23,086 bases of DNA from a virus. Both the position numbers and the translations under genes were made by a program. Shown here in pieces: positions 2,831 through 11,634 of this stretch (its first letter is position 1; the number at the start of each line of letters is the position of its first letter). Location of the stretch: the IMG/VR virus record IMGVR_UViG_3300027792_000057, positions 1-23,086 of that record. One strand, given 5' to 3'. Under the pieces are notes generated by a model. The model was not told the origin of the DNA and did not search any database. It saw only the letters and a list, made by a program, of their open reading frames with translations.

Positions 2831-3949
2831 TTAATGTACTTCAAGCCAGGATTTACCTGTCTTAGGTGTACCTACAATTTCTACGTTAAGTTTAAACCAC
2901 TCACCAGCTTTCTTAAAAGCTTTCTCTGTAATAGGAAGAAACTCAGCTACGTGTTCATTAAGCACCTCGTATTCATATTCATCATGGTAGAAAATAAGTT
3001 GGTGACTGTCAAGATGACTACTCCACTTGTCTATAAATAAACCAGCTACCTTAACAACCACACTACCTGCATTTTGAAACATAAGGTTCACAAGGGAATG
3101 CTGGCTACGTGCATGTAATTTACGTCCATCAATTCCTCTTATGAATCCACCTTTCTTACCACCACGGCTCTCCCAAGCCTTAGTTAAATCCTGCTTGAAT
3201 AACTCTAGTGGCTTATATTTTTCCCAGAAAGCGTCATAATATTTCTGACCATCTCTGGCACTACACTTTAATGTAGCTGTAAACTTAGGGACTTGAGCAC
3301 CATACATTAACGCATAGTATGGACTCTTCGCATCATTACGAGAACAGTTCCACATATCTGCATTCTCTTGGTGAATGTCTCCGTGAAGTACCAAGTCTGC
3401 TAGTACATCACCACCAGGATAATTCAGCATGAAGTGAGCAAATATACGTGCTTCAAGTGCTGCTGCATCTACACCTACAAGTGTATACCCATCAGCAACA
3501 ATAAACAAGTCTCTGATTTCAGCCCCGTAAGCAGCATGAATAGAGGGTATGTTGACAATGTTACTGTGGGTAGCTCGGCCTGTGTTAGTCCCTTGAGGAA
3601 TACATCTTGCCTCAACCCTACCATCACTCCTCACATTATTCAGAAGACCACTAAGACTACCATCTGTACGAACATTCTCCAAGAGTCTCTGACGATGTAT
3701 AAGAACATTACGTCTAGCGACTAGCTTAGGTACTTCTCCAGTGACAGATGCAAAAGAATCTTCTGTTAGCTTAGGGCTAGTGGGGATAAGTTCTCCATTC
3801 TCATCCTTAGCAAAGTAACCCTTAGCATCTTTCTGATAGTTGTATTCGCTTGGAACCCATCCTTGAGTGAGGAGGTAATTCTTTACCTGATCGTGAGAGT
3901 TCAGGTTGATGGGTTTCCAGCCCACCCTACAGAATGGGCCACCTATCAT
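2831..3949 (-). CDS. DNA polymerase family A, polymerase (palm/fingers) domain polypeptide
   Basis: This encodes the 5'-3' polymerase part of a T7-like family A replicative polymerase. Seen: TGRATHS (about residues 124-130), motif A VDAAALEARIFAHF with the metal Asp near 162, motif B RNDAKSPYYALMYG (about 205-218), IRGIDGRKLHARS (about 271-283), and motif C YHDEYEYEV with the second metal Asp at about 324. The 3'-5' exonuclease domain is absent and is encoded separately at 4265-5017. The chain starts with GPFCRVGWKPINLNS, which corresponds to the thumb region of T7 gp5 (APYTPVEHVVFNPSS), so no polymerase motif is missing. The ATG at 3949 overlaps the upstream stop as TGATG; a GTG one codon earlier is also possible. 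The two chains probably associate into one enzyme. Confidence 0.9.
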   Translation of the reverse strand: MIGGPFCRVGWKPINLNSHDQVKNYLLTQGWVPSEYNYQKDAKGYFAKDENGELIPTSPKLTEDSFASVTGEVPKLVARRNVLIHRQRLLENVRTDGSLSGLLNNVRSDGRVEARCIPQGTNTGRATHSNIVNIPSIHAAYGAEIRDLFIVADGYTLVGVDAAALEARIFAHFMLNYPGGDVLADLVLHGDIHQENADMWNCSRNDAKSPYYALMYGAQVPKFTATLKCSARDGQKYYDAFWEKYKPLELFKQDLTKAWESRGGKKGGFIRGIDGRKLHARSQHSLVNLMFQNAGSVVVKVAGLFIDKWSSHLDSHQLIFYHDEYEYEVLNEHVAEFLPITEKAFKKAGEWFKLNVEIVGTPKTGKSWLEVH

Positions 3950-4173
3950 CACACAGCTTTCTTAGCTACAGGTTTCTCCTCAAACAGGGGCATGTTATCC
4001 CAAGAGAAATTTTCTTCTTCCTTCACAAAGTATTTATCAATAGACAAATCACTGAAAGAAGCTGCACGAAGAATAGGCTTAATAAGACATTCGATGTAAT
4101 CATCCATGAGATCAAAGTCTTCATTCAGGAAAATACTGTAGGTTCCATTTGCATCAGTAAGAGAGATTTGCAT
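3949..4173 (-). CDS. Hypothetical protein inserted between the two polymerase chains, 74 aa
   Basis: The frame is open to 4281, but the start at 4173 is preferred because AAGGAACACAAA immediately precedes it. The protein begins MQISLTDANGTYSIFLNEDF, then an acidic helix LMDDYIECLIKPIL, and ends FEEKPVAKKAV. The beta-strand start followed by a helix resembles small phage proteins of unknown function; it is not an HNH, GIY-YIG or LAGLIDADG endonuclease. It lies exactly between the exonuclease and polymerase ORFs and is coupled to the latter by TGATG, which hints at a polymerase accessory role, though this is inference. Confidence 0.7.
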   Translation of the reverse strand: MQISLTDANGTYSIFLNEDFDLMDDYIECLIKPILRAASFSDLSIDKYFVKEEENFSWDNMPLFEEKPVAKKAV

Positions 4174-4264
4174 TTTGTGTTCCTTGTGTAAGTTCGCACG
4201 AGTGCTCGCACGAATATTAGGTTGGTTAGGAAAATTCCAAAGGTTCAAAGGTGGGAAGGTTAAG
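4174..4264 (-). other. 91-base spacer with short repeats between polymerase exonuclease ORF and inserted gene
   Basis: In an operon where almost every gene overlaps its neighbour, this spacer stands out. On the minus strand it has ACCTTTG twice and two copies of TCGTGCGA separated by GCAC, which also make short dyads (GTGC-GA-GCAC and CGAG-CA-CTCG). It ends with the ribosome binding site of the 74-residue gene. It is too short for a group I intron core. It may be a remnant of the insertion that split the polymerase gene. Confidence 0.5.
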
Positions 4265-5017
4265 TCAGGCCACTGTATCATCTTCTAGCCACTTCAAAGC
4301 TATGTTAGACAACGTACCATCTTTCTTGAAAGGTTTGTTCACAGGTCCAAGATTCTCAAGAGAAGGTGGAATAAGAGGTACTACTGTATGTTCTATGTCT
4401 TCTATCTCCTTACAAATAGTATGTACAAGTTCTCTTGCTTTGTCAACAGCAAAGAGCACTCCATGTGTTTCCTGCTTAACTTGTAGTGCTTGCATTGCAT
4501 ACTCAAGGGTTAAGCTAGGTATCCAATCCCATCCAGCTTGCTCCTCAAGCATCTTAGCATATACTCTACGGGTGATATCTACATCTCGAATACAGTATGT
4601 TAGCATCTCTTGTGACAAGCAAGAGAAGTCTGAGTGATCTCCTTTAGGAAACTTAAACACTTCTCCCCAGTATGCAACACTATGTCCAGGTCTATCAGGA
4701 AAGAATAACCTAGACATAATTATAGTATCAGCTACAGAAGAAGGAGAAATACTATAGTTAAAGTTATATAGCTTCTTTAGTAAAGGTAAGTCAAAGCCAA
4801 GTACATTGTGTCCTACTAAATAAGAAGAAGTAAGAAGCTGTAAGTATTCTTCTATATTTATATATATAATAGAGTTCTTAGGGTAGCTGTAGTTCTCCTC
4901 TTTGTCAAGGTATATGTGATATTTATTTTCTTCCAAGTTGTAAGCTACGATAGTCCATATCTTTGTAGCATCTTGGAGAAGTGCGTTTGCCTCAATATCG
5001 AAGATTAAGGTTTGCAT
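4265..5017 (-). CDS. DNA polymerase family A, 3'-5' proofreading exonuclease domain polypeptide
   Basis: DnaQ/RNase D-like exonuclease domain plus the start of the polymerase thumb. Seen: Exo I FDIEANALL (metal Asp and Glu at about residues 7 and 9), Exo II VGHNVLGFDLPLLKKLY (about 68-84) and Exo III YCIRDVDITRRVY (about 141-153), the Tyr-x3-Asp type. After about residue 180 the sequence (VKQETHGVLFAVDKARELV, then VVPLIPPS) matches the thumb helices of T7-like polymerases. The ORF stops at LEDDTVA, where homologous polymerases would continue into the stretch that begins the 2831-3949 ORF. It therefore looks like the N-terminal third of a split polymerase with all exonuclease residues intact. 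The start at 5017 is one base after the upstream TGA. Confidence 0.9.
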   Translation of the reverse strand: MQTLIFDIEANALLQDATKIWTIVAYNLEENKYHIYLDKEENYSYPKNSIIYINIEEYLQLLTSSYLVGHNVLGFDLPLLKKLYNFNYSISPSSVADTIIMSRLFFPDRPGHSVAYWGEVFKFPKGDHSDFSCLSQEMLTYCIRDVDITRRVYAKMLEEQAGWDWIPSLTLEYAMQALQVKQETHGVLFAVDKARELVHTICKEIEDIEHTVVPLIPPSLENLGPVNKPFKKDGTLSNIALKWLEDDTVA

Positions 5018-5827: not shown

Positions 5828-7424
5828 TTAAAGTAATCTCCTTTGGTAAAAGCCTTCCAGTGTTAAAGTCATACTGACATACATCTGCACTACCTGTCCA
5901 GCCTGTTTCTCTGGACTTCAATACCCTAATCTTACTCTCGTTATTATCTTCTCCTTGTTGGTCACGTTCAAGGGCAATCACGTTGAAAGATAATTGTTCA
6001 AGTGCTGCACTACCACGTAAGTCAGTAAGAGAAATCTCACCACCTTCATTGAAAGAAGTCTTACCTTTGTTACGTGATAGATGAACAACAGAAATAATAC
6101 CTACTCCACTTTCTACAACAAAAGCAGCAAGCTCAGTCATGGCATTATCAATAGCTATACGTTCATTATCATTAGCTTGCCCAGAAAAGACTAAGCTCAA
6201 ATGATCAAGTATAATGAAATCACAGCCAGCACCGTAGGCGAGATAACGCATCTTTGCAAGAAGCTCCTCTGTCGGTAACGAGCCAAAATGTTGGAGAGCA
6301 TACCATTTGTCATTGATTAACCTATCGAAGGAAGTTTGCCATTGTTCATCGGTAAGAATAGTGTTGTTTTTACGCAACATACTCAAAGGTACGTTATTGT
6401 CCAGTGCAATGTAACTTTGTACAGTTTTTTCCAGTGTCTCCTCAAGGAAAAGATTACCAATAGTAAGATCATGTGTCTTACGTAAGTGATAACCAATTTC
6501 TTTAGCCATTGTGCTCTTGCCGATACCACTACCAGCAGTTAGCGTAGTTAGTTCACCCTTACGTAAGCCACCAATCATACGATTAAGAATCGGGTAGGGT
6601 AAGTCATAACCAGCTACTTGCATCTTCTTGATAGATGCTAAATCAATTTCTGTACCAGATATAATGCCTTTAGGTTTATGCTTCTGAGCACCAAAGAAAG
6701 CATTGATGAACTCAGCTTGCTTACCTGCAAGGAGCATATCACAAGCATCTTTCTCACTTGTAACCATAATCCTAGCTTTACCTGGACCAATTAGTGCAGC
6801 AATTTCTTCAGCACATTTCCTTCCCGGTACATCCATATCTGTGTAGATGATTACTTCTTTGAAGGATAATACATACTCAAGGTTATCCTTCACAGCTTCA
6901 GCATTTTCTCCCTTTGGTAGAGATACAACAGAAGGCTTAAAGTTAGGGTATTTTTCATATAAAATCTGATAAGCTGCTAGTGCATCAAGCTCCCCCCCAG
7001 TAATAAGCAATTTAAGGCCACCAGGGGGGCATACAGCCTGTCCAAATAGATCGACAATACCTTTGCTAGTACCAACAGAAAAGAAGTCCTTGGGCAGCTT
7101 CCTGACCTTGTAACCAGTGATTGTTCCTCCCTTGGTAAAAGGATAGAAGTGGCTATCTACTTCTCCCGATGTTTCACTATTACCCATCTTTACTTTGAAG
7201 TGCTCTACAATGCTTTGCTTTATCTTTCTTTCTGGTATAGCAGCAGAAGGAAGATGACCGACCATCTCGATATCCATTATTTGTTCCTCAACTTCTTCTC
7301 CATTATGTTCATGATAACCACATCTGTTACAGTGCCAAGATACCCCATCCTTCATGAGGAATAGATGATCGCCTGTCTTATCCCTGCCATTACTACGGCA
7401 TTTAGGGCAAGGTTTATTTTGCAT
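5817..7424 (-). CDS. T7 gp4-like primase-helicase, 535 aa
   Basis: Replicative primase fused to a RecA-fold DnaB-type hexameric helicase. Domains in order: an N-terminal zinc ribbon with CPKC (residues 6-9) and CNRC (32-35) for template recognition; a TOPRIM primase core with ITGGELDALAAY (Glu near 145) and YTDMD (about 194-198); then the helicase with Walker A GSGIGKST (298-305), the glutamate motif FLEET (about 326-330), Walker B DFIILDH (402-408), SVVHLSR (445-451) and LRGSAALEQ (469-477). The length is close to T7 gp4 (566 residues), and all key residues appear present. The start at 7424 overlaps the preceding gene by 11 bases. It should work with the split polymerase and the SSB-like protein at the fork. 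Confidence 0.95.
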   Translation of the reverse strand: MQNKPCPKCRSNGRDKTGDHLFLMKDGVSWHCNRCGYHEHNGEEVEEQIMDIEMVGHLPSAAIPERKIKQSIVEHFKVKMGNSETSGEVDSHFYPFTKGGTITGYKVRKLPKDFFSVGTSKGIVDLFGQAVCPPGGLKLLITGGELDALAAYQILYEKYPNFKPSVVSLPKGENAEAVKDNLEYVLSFKEVIIYTDMDVPGRKCAEEIAALIGPGKARIMVTSEKDACDMLLAGKQAEFINAFFGAQKHKPKGIISGTEIDLASIKKMQVAGYDLPYPILNRMIGGLRKGELTTLTAGSGIGKSTMAKEIGYHLRKTHDLTIGNLFLEETLEKTVQSYIALDNNVPLSMLRKNNTILTDEQWQTSFDRLINDKWYALQHFGSLPTEELLAKMRYLAYGAGCDFIILDHLSLVFSGQANDNERIAIDNAMTELAAFVVESGVGIISVVHLSRNKGKTSFNEGGEISLTDLRGSAALEQLSFNVIALERDQQGEDNNESKIRVLKSRETGWTGSADVCQYDFNTGRLLPKEITLNGY

Positions 7425-7710
7425 TTCTATTCTCGAACCTCTTGTACATTACTGCAATCTTACGTTCAATAGCAGTTTGTTGTAGAGGAACATCCCCTGA
7501 GTATAGTGTGAAATATTTTGCCACTACACCAAACTCTTCCCCAATATAATACTTAGCAGTTCCTTCATCTACGGATGACAGGACTTTAACCTTCATTGCA
7601 CTGTTCTCTGGATTAAAGAATACAACCTCCATAATGGCATCAGAATTAGTAATGCCATATTCTCTGATACTCTCAGGAGTACCTGTAACAATATCCCCTA
7701 CCTTAAACAT
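7414..7710 (-). CDS. Member 1 of a three-protein paralogous family (VGDI...ERKIAVMYKRFE), 98 aa
   Basis: The start at 7710 is chosen for the AAAGGAAGAATC before it; the open frame extends six codons further. The protein starts FKVGDIVTGTPES, continues as a beta-rich, probably SH3-like domain, and ends with the basic helix TAIERKIAVMYKRFENR. That terminal block is almost identical in two other genes nearby (7703-7975 and 8152-8424), while the middles differ. The start overlaps the previous stop by 8 bases and the end overlaps primase-helicase by 11 bases. Function unknown; position suggests a replication or host-interaction role. Confidence 0.78.
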   Translation of the reverse strand: MFKVGDIVTGTPESIREYGITNSDAIMEVVFFNPENSAMKVKVLSSVDEGTAKYYIGEEFGVVAKYFTLYSGDVPLQQTAIERKIAVMYKRFENRNAK

Positions 7711-7975
7711 GATTCTTCCTTTGCTCAAAGCGTTTATACATCACAGCTATTTTTCTTTCTACTGCTGTTTTATAGTTAATAGTTCCACGGTGAATCTTAA
7801 CACCAGTATTACCTTGGTAATACTCCCAGGTGAAGCTATTATCTCCTTGCACACCTGTTTCCGTATTAAATACTGCAAGCCTATAACCATCATTTTCTTC
7901 AGCTAAGACAATATATTCTGTATCCCAATTTACATGAGAAATGATATCTCCTACTTGTAGTGGCTCATTCATCAT
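7703..7975 (-). CDS. Member 2 of the three-protein paralogous family, 90 aa
   Basis: Starts with MMNEPLQVGDIISHVNWDTEY and ends with TAVERKIAVMYKRFEQRKN. Two adjacent ATGs (7975 and 7972) follow TGAGGAGGAGAAAG, a strong Shine-Dalgarno. The middle (EYIVLAEENDGYRLAVFN, FTWEYYQGN) is beta-rich and diverged from its sisters. It begins inside the end of the zinc-ribbon gene and overlaps family member 1 by 8 bases. The shared ends with different centres suggest duplication followed by diversification of the binding surface (inference). Function unknown. Confidence 0.75.
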   Translation of the reverse strand: MMNEPLQVGDIISHVNWDTEYIVLAEENDGYRLAVFNTETGVQGDNSFTWEYYQGNTGVKIHRGTINYKTAVERKIAVMYKRFEQRKNHV

Positions 7976-8150
7976 CTTTCTCCTCCTCAGAGTAGAAGCC
8001 CCTATCTCCAATGATAGGCAAATCAACAATAGCTATTACTTCACGTAAACAATTACCACATAGATCGAAGTATTCTCCTGTCTCTGCATGTTTACGTTTC
8101 ATATCAGCTACAGACATCTTTGCATTACAACTACGGCATCGTCCTGACAA
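7965..8150 (-). CDS. Small zinc-ribbon protein with TTG start, 61 aa
   Basis: The likely start is TTG at 8150, placed by AAGGAGAATTAAA directly upstream. Upstream in-frame codons include no ATG, and the first internal ATG would remove the first Cys pair. The protein carries CRSCNAK near the N-terminus and CGNC about 23 residues later, a classic four-Cys zinc ribbon, followed by a helix (REVIAIVDLPI) and an acidic tail. It sits between two members of the paralogous family, three bases after the stop of one and overlapping the start of the other by 11 bases. The function is unknown; zinc ribbons of this size often contact RNA polymerase or nucleic acid. Confidence 0.7.
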   Translation of the reverse strand: MSGRCRSCNAKMSVADMKRKHAETGEYFDLCGNCLREVIAIVDLPIIGDRGFYSEEEKDDE

Positions 8151-8151
8151 T

Positions 8152-8424
8152 TTAATTCTCCTTACGATTTTCAAATCGTTTATACATCACTGCAATCTTA
8201 CGTTCAATTGAGGTTTTTTTATTAACACCACCATAAGCTATAGCTTCCGGGCGTATCCACCATCCACCATTATAATCTGTGTGTACTGACAAGGAGTTAC
8301 TTTCTCCTCCCTTATACAATTTAGTAATGATGTATGTATTACCACGCATAGCAAAAGCACCATCAACACTGACAATAGGGGCATCTTCTGCAATAGTGAT
8401 AACATCTCCTACAGCATAGTTCAT
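8152..8424 (-). CDS. Member 3 of the three-protein paralogous family, 90 aa
   Basis: Begins MNYAVGDVITIAEDAPIV and ends with TSIERKIAVMYKRFENRK. It is most like member 1 at the C-terminus, and its centre (AMRGNTYIITKLYKGGE, GGWWIRPEAIAY) is again a beta-rich small domain. The ATG at 8424 has AAGGAGAAACTAGC upstream and overlaps the ATP-grasp stop as ATGA. Its last codons contain the ribosome binding site of the TTG-started zinc-ribbon gene. Function unknown. Confidence 0.77.
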   Translation of the reverse strand: MNYAVGDVITIAEDAPIVSVDGAFAMRGNTYIITKLYKGGESNSLSVHTDYNGGWWIRPEAIAYGGVNKKTSIERKIAVMYKRFENRKEN

Positions 8425-9119
8425 GCTAGTTTCTCCTTAAATTGCGCAGCAAAACCCTCTACTAGCCCTATGTTAAACAGAGTAGGAGCACTATTAGCCT
8501 CAAGAATATATACAGTGTAATCCTCACTTACCTTGAAGTCAACAGCACCATAGGATAGTTCAAGACGATTAGCTACTTTCTCGGTGTATTCCTCGAGAAT
8601 ATTTTTAAGGCCCGTTACACGAGAGAACTCATCTTTAGTAGACCCATACCCCCACCCATTACCTGAAGTCTGTAAATGGTGGCTTGTAGGCTCTCCTAGA
8701 GGTAGCTTCTGGTAGTAGTGATATGTCATATCGTAGCAGAAGTATACCCTGAACTCATTTCCTACAATTTCCTTGGTAGAAAAGAAGTCAGGCATGAAGT
8801 CTTCTTCACGATCTACATATATTACACCAACACCATTGCTACCATTAGGTACACGATGCTGAAAGCATGGGCCTTCATAAGATGTACACACTGGTACAGT
8901 TCCAAGGTCTTTACATAGTTCAAAGAACAATCGTTTGTATCCACTACGGCCTACAGCTTCAAGCTTGTTACCCCACACATGGGTATGTTCATGCCGATTA
9001 AGTGTACTGTTACCCCAATTAACCTTAATGGTACGCTCAGTAGGGTAGAAGTCATTCATCGTATCTTGAATAACCTCTGCTGTTTCTTTACAGATAGAAG
9101 GAGCTAGAATTCGCCACAT
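8421..9119 (-). CDS. ATP-grasp domain protein (carboxylate-amine ligase type), 232 aa
   Basis: The start at 9119 is chosen because GGAGAGTGATT precedes it; the frame is open 22 codons further upstream. Seen: a substrate-side N-terminal region, a GSNGVGVIYV loop (about residues 93-102) that fits the nucleotide-binding lid of ATP-grasp enzymes, EFRVYFCYDM (about 122-131), and the C-terminal catalytic block GAVDFKVSEDYTVYILEANSAP with the metal ligands Asp 194, Glu 207 and Asn 209. The family forms amide bonds through an acyl-phosphate. It is about 230 residues, shorter than RimK-like enzymes, and may lack part of the first subdomain. It overlaps the glutamine amidotransferase gene by 32 bases, and together with the amidoligase it looks like one small biosynthetic or peptide-modifying pathway. 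Confidence 0.8.
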   Translation of the reverse strand: MWRILAPSICKETAEVIQDTMNDFYPTERTIKVNWGNSTLNRHEHTHVWGNKLEAVGRSGYKRLFFELCKDLGTVPVCTSYEGPCFQHRVPNGSNGVGVIYVDREEDFMPDFFSTKEIVGNEFRVYFCYDMTYHYYQKLPLGEPTSHHLQTSGNGWGYGSTKDEFSRVTGLKNILEEYTEKVANRLELSYGAVDFKVSEDYTVYILEANSAPTLFNIGLVEGFAAQFKEKLA

Positions 9120-9909
9120 AATCACTCTCCATATAGTCGTCAATAGATTGTACAAAAGCAGCAGGAATAACACTCTTACGCTCAATTATTCCTTCAGCAG
9201 TCTGAGTATGGCTAATAACCTCAAGCTTATTGAAAGGCAAGATGTTATCTACATATACAACAGCACCTTTCTTGTAACCCATAAAGTCCCGAGTAAAGCA
9301 TACCATTTCTCCCTCAAGGAAATAGCTACTTTTATGTGCTACCCATGTACCTTGCTTAGGTGGAGAGTATACAGGAATACGGAAGCTAGTGTTGCTGTAC
9401 CACACACCATCCTCCCAAACACCACGATCAGGATTAATAATGGTGCTGCGGCCCTTGCTATCAAGAAAGATTAGCTTACTGCTACCAATGAAGCTCTTGA
9501 TAAGTTCTTGATTATAAAGGCGTTTAATGAATGCCCTATTGTCCCTATACATAGGCTTGATGATAGCTTCGTTGAAGTGCCATGTATCAGAGAACTTTTT
9601 ATTATCTTCTTTGATGTTGATAATACCATTATGAACAAAAGCCAAGTCATTACTTACCTGGAAGGGATGGGTATTATCTGCGGAAATATCTCCATGTGTC
9701 TTAATACGGAAGTGGATTACACATTTCTCCTGCTCAACAGGCTTATAGCTTTCATAGAATTCATCAAAGGAAAAGAAACCCTTATGTATGTGCAACTGAT
9801 TATCTCTTGCATACATATATCCAGCACCATTGCTATTTGCCTTGAAGCATTGGGCTAGGGTTTCTTTGGAAACTGTCTTACCTTCAGGTTTTAGTAGGGC
9901 AATGCACAC
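9088..9909 (-). CDS. Class II (Ntn-type) glutamine amidotransferase domain protein, 273 aa
   Basis: The GTG start at 9909 with GGAGAGCTAAC upstream puts Cys at position 2, so removal of fMet exposes the N-terminal nucleophile required by this family. Other family residues are visible: HFRIKTHGD with Arg 68 and His 72, HPF (81-83), VHNGI with Asn 94-Gly 95, and SDT with Asp 108. The role is to hydrolyse glutamine and pass ammonia to a partner. The C-terminal half (after about residue 150) is not a known synthase domain: it has a beta-rich stretch with EGEMVCFTRDFMGYKKGAVVYV. It is followed by the ATP-grasp gene and preceded by NinX-like and amidoligase genes, so ammonia or an amine is probably the co-substrate of an amide-forming step. 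Confidence 0.85.
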   Translation of the reverse strand: MCIALLKPEGKTVSKETLAQCFKANSNGAGYMYARDNQLHIHKGFFSFDEFYESYKPVEQEKCVIHFRIKTHGDISADNTHPFQVSNDLAFVHNGIINIKEDNKKFSDTWHFNEAIIKPMYRDNRAFIKRLYNQELIKSFIGSSKLIFLDSKGRSTIINPDRGVWEDGVWYSNTSFRIPVYSPPKQGTWVAHKSSYFLEGEMVCFTRDFMGYKKGAVVYVDNILPFNKLEVISHTQTAEGIIERKSVIPAAFVQSIDDYMESDYVANSSSFYL

Positions 9910-9910
9910 G

Positions 9911-10270
9911 TTAGCTCTCCAATTCTTTAGGGATAGTTACTTCATCACCAAGTTTACTTGCCACATAACAGCGCATGGCTGTGACGAGGGGGGTGGAGCC
10001 AGTTCGATTAAAGCGCCAATCCCAGTCGGCATCGGTTAAGCCTTCTGGTATATATGCAGCTACCCACAGCGTCTTTGGGCCGCCTAACCAAGTGACGGAA
10101 ATACGTTCTCGCTCAATGATTGGCCCGCCTTGGGACCAATCTGTTGAGTAAGTATGCCCCATGAAGTAGTCATAAGGAATCATTGAGGATTTGCCCCAAT
10201 TCTTTTCCTTGCCTTCGCATTTCGCCACAGCCCAATCAAGGGCAGGCCCAATCAGTTCAGATGTTTTCAT
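9911..10270 (-). CDS. NinX-like phage protein (DUF2591 family), 119 aa
   Basis: Strong recognition by signature: KTSELIGPALDWAVAKCEG at the start, YSTDWSQGGPIIERE in the middle, and TAMRCYVASKLGDEVTIP at the end. This is the phage NinX/DUF2591 group, found in many enterobacterial and Burkholderia phages; its function is unknown. The DNA is clearly more GC-rich than its neighbours (33 of 60 bases are G or C in 10021-10080, against 18 of 60 in 11461-11520). It interrupts the amidoligase cluster between amidoligase and glutamine amidotransferase, so it is probably a later arrival. It starts by ATGA overlap with the amidoligase stop. Confidence 0.88.
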   Translation of the reverse strand: MKTSELIGPALDWAVAKCEGKEKNWGKSSMIPYDYFMGHTYSTDWSQGGPIIERERISVTWLGGPKTLWVAAYIPEGLTDADWDWRFNRTGSTPLVTAMRCYVASKLGDEVTIPKELES

Positions 10271-11634
10271 GCTATTGCTCCAATCAAATTAGGATACATC
10301 TTCTTATTACCCCACACAAAAGCCCTGAACTTCTCCCAAGATACAGCATCTTTCACACTGCAAATAGCTGGCTTGGTCCAGTCAACTAATGCTTGGACAA
10401 ACTCAAGACGCATAAACAGAGTAGTTTCATCTGTAGGTGGGGCAAAGATACGGACTTCAATGGTATTTTTAGGAGAAGTATTCAATGCTTCGTACTTACC
10501 TGCGCTATCTCTTGATACTCCATCAAGATTACCATATAAGCCATCTGTTAATGTTCGTTCACTACTAGCTTTACAGAAGCGATTGGAGGAGAATGACCGA
10601 CCTGCTAGTGCCTCAATACTCGGGATGTTTTCTTTCTTGTAGATGAAAGCAAGCATCTTACCTATTTGCATTTCCCCCATAGACCTCTTGTCCACATGAA
10701 CGTGCATACCACAATTACTTAAGGCTTCCAGTCCCGTAACCTTATCATAAAAACCTTTAAATTCCCGCTTATGGGATGCAATTGTAGCTGGCGCAGTAAC
10801 AATCTCAAAGCCAGAGGATAAGCTACCATCACGTTTGACAATTACATGATTGTGTAAGGCAATGTATACATCCTTAGCCTTACTTGTGCAGTTTTCATAC
10901 TCAAGTTCAATACCAAGATATACAGGGGATGCTTCACCATCATCCTTGAAAGGGAGGGTATGTTCAGCACGTTCACTATAGGATTTAATTTCATACCTTC
11001 GAGCACATCTTGGGCATGTGCTATCTACATGAATATACCCGCATTCATCACACTCGTTGAATCTTGAGATAATATATGAAAGGGGCAAATACTCCCCATT
11101 AATTTCATACATTCTATCAAGTGTCCAATATCCACCATTAAACCTTCCCCATGAACTTACGGAAAGATAAAAGGTTTCACGTAATAGCCAAGTCTTTTCA
11201 CCATTAAGGTAAGTTTCTACACATAAACATTTAGGGAGAAACTGCCCATCATGCGTAGTGACGAAAAAATTCTTCTTGCGTAAGACCTTATATGCCCAGG
11301 ATTTCTGAGCCTTCTCTGATTTACCATTACATTCCAGAAGATACTTACGATACCCTTCTGGAGTTAGTAGCCTATTTTTAGTTACAAGTAATCCCTTATA
11401 GGGTAATAAGCCAAGGTCTTGTAGAGAAATATTCAGGTTAGTATCATTGCCATAGAACCAAGAAATATAATCTTGTGGCCTCTCTCCGTATTCATTATAA
11501 ATTACACAAAACGGATAATATTCATATATACTAAATAGTGAAATACCATCTCTTAATATAGAGCTGCCTTCTATTGTAAATCCTTGAGGAAGGAGAATAT
11601 CTTTTACCTCTTGTAGTGTTTTATCAATTCTCAT
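10267..11634 (-). CDS. Putative amidoligase (glutamine-synthetase-like COOH-NH2 ligase), 455 aa
   Basis: The C-terminal half has the ordered motifs of the amidoligase superfamily, ATP-dependent amide-forming enzymes with a glutamine-synthetase-like fold: GIELEYEN (241-248), VKRDGSLSSGFEIVTAP (266-282), CGMHVHVDKRSMG (308-320), KYEALN (380-385) and TIEVRIFAPP (391-400). In front of it sits a zinc ribbon CDECGY...CPRC (195-210), and before that an N-terminal region of unknown fold with many Trp and Tyr. Such enzymes are predicted to join amino acids or amines to peptides or small molecules. Neighbouring ATP-grasp and amidotransferase genes match contexts described for amidoligases. Start at 11634: AAGGTGAAATC upstream and ATGA overlap. 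Confidence 0.82.
   Translation of the reverse strand: MRIDKTLQEVKDILLPQGFTIEGSSILRDGISLFSIYEYYPFCVIYNEYGERPQDYISWFYGNDTNLNISLQDLGLLPYKGLLVTKNRLLTPEGYRKYLLECNGKSEKAQKSWAYKVLRKKNFFVTTHDGQFLPKCLCVETYLNGEKTWLLRETFYLSVSSWGRFNGGYWTLDRMYEINGEYLPLSYIISRFNECDECGYIHVDSTCPRCARRYEIKSYSERAEHTLPFKDDGEASPVYLGIELEYENCTSKAKDVYIALHNHVIVKRDGSLSSGFEIVTAPATIASHKREFKGFYDKVTGLEALSNCGMHVHVDKRSMGEMQIGKMLAFIYKKENIPSIEALAGRSFSSNRFCKASSERTLTDGLYGNLDGVSRDSAGKYEALNTSPKNTIEVRIFAPPTDETTLFMRLEFVQALVDWTKPAICSVKDAVSWEKFRAFVWGNKKMYPNLIGAIA

Follow-up and report, generated by a model that had tools for sequence, protein, structure and literature searches.

What does a podovirus join to what with an amidoligase, a class II glutamine amidotransferase and an ATP-grasp enzyme encoded together among its replication genes? 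The question is raised by the virus record IMGVR_UViG_3300027792_000057, a linear record of 23,086 bases that was analysed at its full length (hereafter the window; all positions refer to it) and that carries these three genes as one cassette. Our best explanation, which we hold tentatively and rate at slightly less than an even chance, is that the cassette makes an amide-linked modification of a host molecule, most likely a cytoplasmic precursor of the cell wall. The enzyme classes on which this explanation builds are assigned with high confidence, and the wall as the target, argued by analogy, is a possible choice that we would place somewhat short of probable.

The cassette occupies the minus strand, with the following features:

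10267-11634, minus strand: amidoligase of 455 residues, with a variable N-terminal part, a zinc ribbon and a C-terminal carboxylate-amine ligase domain predicted to be like those of glutamine synthetase (GS) and glutamate-cysteine ligase
11005-11052, minus strand: amidoligase zinc ribbon with C195, C198, C207 and C210, from the conservation of the cysteines
10270-10935, minus strand: amidoligase residues 234-455, the ligase domain, from invariant residues and the model
9911-10270, minus strand: NinX-like protein of 119 residues (PF10765, E 8e-19; phrog_4389, 1e-28)
9088-9909, minus strand: class II glutamine amidotransferase of 273 residues with a GTG start and Cys2 as nucleophile, from GATase_4 and invariant residues
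9370-9906, minus strand: amidotransferase residues 2-180, an N-terminal nucleophile (Ntn) glutaminase domain, from fold matches
9142-9324, minus strand: amidotransferase residues 196-256, a C-terminal SH3/KOW-like barrel, from fold matches
8421-9119, minus strand: RimK-like ATP-grasp ligase of 232 residues, from phrog_2599 and invariant residues

An initial annotation, made from the sequence alone, had named the amidoligase, amidotransferase and ATP-grasp genes, and open reading frames, profile matches and models agree with their positions, strand and products. It had also described the three as all overlapping, which does not hold: the NinX-like gene, which overlaps the amidoligase gene by 4 nucleotides and leaves a gap of 1 nucleotide before the GTG of the amidotransferase gene, separates these two, and the only overlap among the three named genes is that of 32 nucleotides between the amidotransferase and ATP-grasp genes. 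NinX is apparently coupled translationally to its neighbours. Its place between amidoligase and amidotransferase is peculiar to the window, no other such match having been obtained among 165 loci, and its phage relatives are found mostly in Pseudomonas phages. Comparison of 12 close pairs gave for each a ratio of nonsynonymous to synonymous substitution rates smaller than 1, the range being 0.00-0.73. One operon of amide-chemistry enzymes, as originally proposed, is supported, with intact active sites and a conserved co-occurrence of its genes.

The amidoligase is assigned to its class by several kinds of match. While the Pfam model Amidoligase_2 scored the single window protein at E 0.04 and 14.2 bits, below its gathering cut-off of 22, it matched 47 of the 52 aligned relatives at E ≤0.01, and the PHROG amidoligase families phrog_16683 (4e-17) and phrog_2443 (3e-10) matched the window protein itself. 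Nine residues, E243, E245, D269, E277, H311, H313, R346, E393 and R395, were invariant in 51 sequences, and the zinc-ribbon cysteines C195-C198-C207-C210 were kept in at least 90% of the 51-52 relatives. Alignments for structure prediction contained the window and viral-contig sequences only; the resulting model has a mean predicted local distance difference test score (pLDDT) of 77.8, with the ligase domain mostly above 90 and residues 1-90 near 42. Residues 236-455 of the model superimposed on YbdK (1r8g) with a Z of 11.9 and a root-mean-square deviation (rmsd) of 3.8 over 209 residues, followed by glutamine synthetases, glutamate-cysteine ligase and Dop, and the best matches among viral models were phage amidoligases. 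The N-terminal 190 residues ahead of the zinc ribbon vary in length among the relatives, and the first 90 of them are poorly modelled. Thus, according to the model, the protein is a zinc ribbon joined to a glutamine-synthetase/YbdK-type ligase domain with metal and ATP ligands, in keeping with the zinc-ribbon amidoligase originally named.

The amidotransferase gene starts with GTG followed directly by TGC, which places a cysteine at position 2, as first read from the sequence, and the N-terminal Met-Cys is invariant in all aligned relatives. GATase_4 matched the window protein at 1.8e-4 and 21.0 bits, against a Pfam cut-off of 23, and matched 43 of the 49 aligned members. The residues invariant in 47 amidotransferases, C2, R68, T71, G73, H81-P82, H93-N94-G95 and D108-T109, are the class II glutaminase set, and the motifs of the class are all present (the N-terminal Cys after Met, R-x-x-T-H-G, H-P-F, H-N-G, the acidic D-T and the Ntn fold). 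In the model, which has a mean pLDDT of 89.6, residues 2-180 matched the glutaminase domain of GlmS (1xff, Z 13.7) and EgtC (4zfk, Z 13.4). The C-terminal part, for which the initial annotation had no assignment, is modelled at residues 196-256 as a barrel that matched SH3 (1zuk, Z 8.6, rmsd 1.3), NusG (2xhc, Z 8.3, rmsd 1.3) and also a ribosomal protein. As modelled, then, the amidotransferase is a class II Ntn glutaminase domain followed by an SH3/KOW-like barrel.

For the third enzyme, the window protein matched the RimK-like ligase family phrog_2599 at E 7e-13, and Pfam RimK was matched by 15 of the 37 aligned members. K62, E122, R124, K138, D194, E207 and N209 are invariant in all 37, giving two lysines, an E-x-R and the D / E-x-N metal ligands. 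The start at the ATG at 9119 agrees with the starts in the closest relatives, contigs L007 and L087. Although tblastn with the window protein matched no phage record, the family profile recognised the ATP-grasp proteins of phiEco32, RIO-1 and LUZ24 at 1e-49 to 1e-58. Judged from its sequence, the enzyme is RimK-like, and its identification as ATP-grasp at 8421-9119 is upheld by the family match and the conserved catalytic residues.

Whether the genes belong together was addressed in a survey of viral contigs. These were searched with alignments of the amidotransferase and of the amidoligase, each search retaining the 80 top-scoring loci out of about 400; merging of overlaps left 106 distinct contigs, the window and named phage records included. 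Alignments were required, as scanning the viral contigs with one sequence only, that of the amidoligase or of the ATP-grasp protein, found no relatives. Amidoligase and amidotransferase occurred together on one strand in 102 of the 106 contigs, one of which is the window; in the 101 apart from it, the two genes were no more than 91 nucleotides apart and usually overlapped by 1 or 10 nucleotides. The four remaining contigs carry one gene of the pair, and in each the contig end falls at that point. Since loci were selected by similarity to one gene, the presence of the partner gene is an independent result, and with about 100 further contigs showing the same pair in the same order chance is excluded. 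The near-obligate pairing makes the amidoligase and the amidotransferase the probable functional unit. ATP-grasp was found in 49 of the 106 contigs, mostly directly downstream of the pair. The co-occurrence of such genes, which the initial annotation had cited as known, is borne out for the pair, which is adjacent wherever both positions are covered (102 contigs). Moreover, relatives carry the two genes paired, not singly, with catalytic residues invariant or near-invariant in up to 52 sequences, not degraded, and both proteins that were modelled have the folds expected of an amidoligase and an amidotransferase.

The pair also occurs outside phage contigs. A genome scan gave 33 loci, of which 28 were taken as true relatives; the other five matches (L193-L197) were set aside as GlmS-like false positives because of their length and weak score. 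An amidoligase match adjoined 26 of the 28 bacterial-contig relatives, three of these matches being weak, and the source records were from Bacteroidota, Actinomycetota, Bacillota, Brachyspira and Victivallis. Among Actinomycetota the pair was found on conjugative elements and plasmids, including three Mycobacterium/Mycobacteroides plasmids and a Labedaea locus where it lies beside a single-stranded DNA-binding protein (SSB), DUF4192 and a TrwC relaxase. At three actinobacterial loci, on plasmid-like or conjugative elements, the pair is close to DUF4192 and/or SSB genes (L176 4680-17412, L201 4795-12756 and L188 7754-15820), and a functional link of DUF4192 to the pair is possible. Nocardia loci (L187, L188, L189 and others) carry two amidoligase-amidotransferase pairs in tandem. 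On an Atopobiaceae contig (L173 2797-12002) the neighbourhood is defence-like: amidoligase and amidotransferase share a single open frame, and Abi_2 and a MobA-type relaxase lie nearby, along with an AAA_13 protein. We did not take the shared frame for a true fusion, as an internal Met-Cys suggests a fresh start, a reading adopted because the nucleophile must be N-terminal.

How does the window cassette relate to systems already described? Three of the reports cited below rest on Iyer 2009, from which the hypothesis of wall modification reportedly stems. A seven-gene cassette is known from RIO-1-like phages and also from phiEco32, LUZ24, PaP3, tf, PA11 and others, with the hypothesis that peptidoglycan is changed and superinfection stopped (PMC5498523); for the 'peptidoglycan modification' cassette a lysis-related idea has also been put forward (PMC11945000), and amidoligase and GATase were noted in MEP401/402 and more than 30 viral genomes (PMC10580990). 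The set is not new, since these three reports already describe it as a phage 'peptidoglycan modification cassette', including that of RIO-1 of Zobellviridae.

RIO-1/PSA-HP1, LUZ24 and phiEco32 share with the window Amidoligase_2, a class II amidotransferase and a RimK-like ATP-grasp enzyme in one operon just upstream of the primase-helicase, RIO-1 belonging moreover to the same family, Zobellviridae. In a set of 21 proteins, profiles of the amidotransferase and amidoligase recognised the RIO-1, LUZ24 and phiEco32 proteins weakly but consistently, with values between about 1e-4 and 1e-8. In contrast to these phages, the window cassette is without the COOH-NH2 ligase (PF14395) and gamma-glutamyl cyclotransferase (GGCT), has a different gene order with NinX inserted, and encodes an amidotransferase of 273 residues with an SH3-like tail instead of one of about 420 to 680 residues. 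A COOH-NH2 ligase match was found neither in the window cassette region nor in 105 of the 106 viral contigs, the Manatee Spring podovirus MW202697 alone having one (together with ATP-grasp, amidotransferase, amidoligase and Peptidase C26), and the cassette region of the window, which is a fragment, gave no match to gamma-glutamyl cyclotransferase. The window cassette is thus a compact, divergent relative of the phiEco32/LUZ24/RIO-1 cassette, without COOH-NH2 ligase or cyclotransferase. MEP401/402, the closest named phages by terminase, have the same gene pair side by side (about 28% and about 42% identical), but no ATP-grasp near the pair, a longer amidoligase N-terminus and no NinX. In Mycobacterium phage Marvin, gp105/gp106 are the same neighbouring pair with the same catalytic residues; unlike in the window, the pair lies at the far right of the genome and no ATP-grasp was found near it. 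EgtC of the ergothioneine pathway and the GlmS glutaminase domain share the class II Ntn fold and catalytic set of the window amidotransferase, which differs in having a C-terminal SH3-like barrel in place of an ergothioneine or sugar-isomerase partner. In MurT/GatD of Staphylococcus aureus two proteins together form an amide on a precursor of the wall in a glutamine-dependent manner (PMC3267633), but their folds are those of a Mur ligase and a class I amidotransferase, so that the likeness to the phage pair is analogy, not homology.

On the explanation that we favour, the pair would work as a glutamine-dependent ligase of amide or gamma-glutamyl type: Cys2 of the amidotransferase would split glutamine or another gamma-glutamyl amide, and the GS/YbdK-like amidoligase would activate a carboxylate with ATP and join ammonia or an amine to it to give an amide, as the folds, the catalytic residues and the pairing suggest. 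As a third and optional member, the RimK-like ATP-grasp enzyme would attach an amino acid or peptide, either to that substrate or to one derived from it. The substrate would most likely be the stem peptide of the cytoplasmic peptidoglycan precursor, following Iyer 2009 and Hardies 2013 and the analogy with MurT/GatD (PMC3267633), and the likely benefit would be a change of the envelope by which competing phages are kept out or the infected cell is protected. Several points weigh against this explanation. The scheme of three wall linkages proposed for the full cassette needs two amidoligases and an ATP-grasp enzyme; as the compact form has one amidoligase, and ATP-grasp was not seen in about half of the contigs, that scheme cannot hold here as stated. 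Zinc ribbons and KOW-like barrels are at least as usual in nucleic-acid- or ribosome-binding proteins as in enzymes of the wall, nothing in the window links a wall-specific gene to the cassette, and we found no experiment in the literature on any cassette enzyme.

The same enzymes could instead form a gamma-glutamyl make-and-break pathway that resembles EgtA/EgtC or PuuA/PuuD and has an amine or small metabolite as its substrate, in which case the amidoligase would add gamma-glutamate, the ATP-grasp enzyme would modify the protected intermediate and the 'amidotransferase' would be a hydrolase that removes the glutamyl group. We regard this as doubtful. It accords with the amidotransferase, which has no fused synthetase domain and whose fold fits the gamma-glutamyl hydrolase EgtC about as well as it fits GlmS, and with the amidoligase matches to YbdK and glutamate-cysteine ligase, enzymes that act on glutamate. 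Related cassettes also carry gamma-glutamylamine cyclotransferase (GGACT, PF06094) or Peptidase C26. Enzymes of both families act on gamma-glutamyl amides, which they break, and their genes beside the cassette therefore point to gamma-glutamyl chemistry, which counts in favour of our preferred explanation as well. GGACT lies near the pair in 15 of the 106 survey contigs and in none of these together with ATP-grasp (Fisher p 4e-5, a value that ignores shared descent). However, LUZ24, phiEco32 and RIO-1, whose records were checked directly, each carry both GGCT and ATP-grasp, which speaks against a general mutual exclusion, and the donor-side residues are alike in hydrolases and transferases, so that sequence cannot decide between them. 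Slightly less likely, in our estimate, is the tagging of a host or phage protein, for instance of the ribosome or RNA polymerase, to which ATP-grasp and amidoligase would add amino acids or which they would amidate, guided by the KOW-like barrel and the zinc ribbon. The resemblance of the ATP-grasp enzyme to the RimK family, the barrel matches to a ribosomal protein and NusG, the conserved zinc ribbon and the membership of PafA/Dop, which act on proteins, in the amidoligase superfamily are consistent with it; the SH3-like barrel is nonetheless a common fold whose match is no proof of function, and about half of the contigs are without ATP-grasp.

The loci on plasmids and conjugative elements bear on two further readings. 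Weakening of the wall for lysis, by replacing wall material with a version that the phage endolysin cuts better, has been proposed (PMC11945000), but we consider it very improbable: the cassette sits with replication genes and not with lysis genes, and the pair is also present on non-lysing elements (in Labedaea by a TrwC relaxase and SSB, on the Mycobacterium plasmids and in Atopobiaceae near a MobA-type relaxase), which makes a purely lytic role unlikely for the pair in general. It is unlikely, though less so, that the minimal pair, common to lytic phages and to plasmids and conjugative elements of several bacterial groups, serves mobile elements in general as a module of exclusion or counter-defence that puts a new amide or gamma-glutamyl mark on a host molecule other than peptidoglycan, with ATP-grasp, cyclotransferase and C26 hydrolase as interchangeable finishing enzymes.

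The surroundings of the cassette place it among early genes. The window is a 23-kb piece of a Zobellviridae-like podovirus, a virus of bacteria, and as a linear record of 23,086 bases it is probably a fragment of the virus genome. The large terminase shares 68% identity with that of the Methylophilales phages MEP401/402, which their records classify in Zobellviridae, and 66% with that of MW202697. The minus strand encodes replication and small genes, the plus strand the structural genes, and a divergent gene-poor region lies at about 13.6-14.8 kb. The cassette lies in the early/replication gene block and adjoins the primase-helicase gene; in the closest relative, L007, which is syntenic with the window through primase-helicase and polymerase, as in RIO-1, LUZ24 and phiEco32, it adjoins this gene or lies just upstream of it, and we infer early or middle expression. 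The initial annotation had taken early placement as favouring host modification or defence evasion over virion assembly; the placement is confirmed, and the preference over virion assembly is a reasonable one that draws on position and literature.

Other features of the same strand were noted in passing. At 2831-5017 the family A DNA polymerase is encoded in two parts, an exonuclease gene (4265-5017) and a polymerase gene (2831-3952), between which lies a small gene (3949-4281), and this split layout is the same in MEP401/402; a group I intron was rejected because there was no Rfam match and the small gene has a 56% identical counterpart in L007. A tRNA-Arg (TCT) gene lies at 2095-2169 on the minus strand. 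Next to the cassette, three small minus-strand paralogues (7414-7728, 7703-7984 and 8152-8424) differ in their N-terminal parts and share a near-identical C-terminal stretch, 'ERKIAVMYKRFE[N/Q]R', so that they look like a variable domain with a constant tail; L007 has at least four genes of this type. The SH3-like tail of the amidotransferase gave no profile match to these paralogues (hhalign probability 0.7%).

Cumulatively, the wall-modification label has been carried since 2009 by inference alone, and our survey reduces the near-obligate core of the cassette to two genes. At least 100 phage contigs, mostly environmental, carry this core, which also occurs on plasmids and conjugative elements, and the survey speaks against models in which three wall linkages are required or lysis is the only purpose. 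The question is thereby narrowed to one reaction, namely what the amidoligase-amidotransferase pair joins to what.

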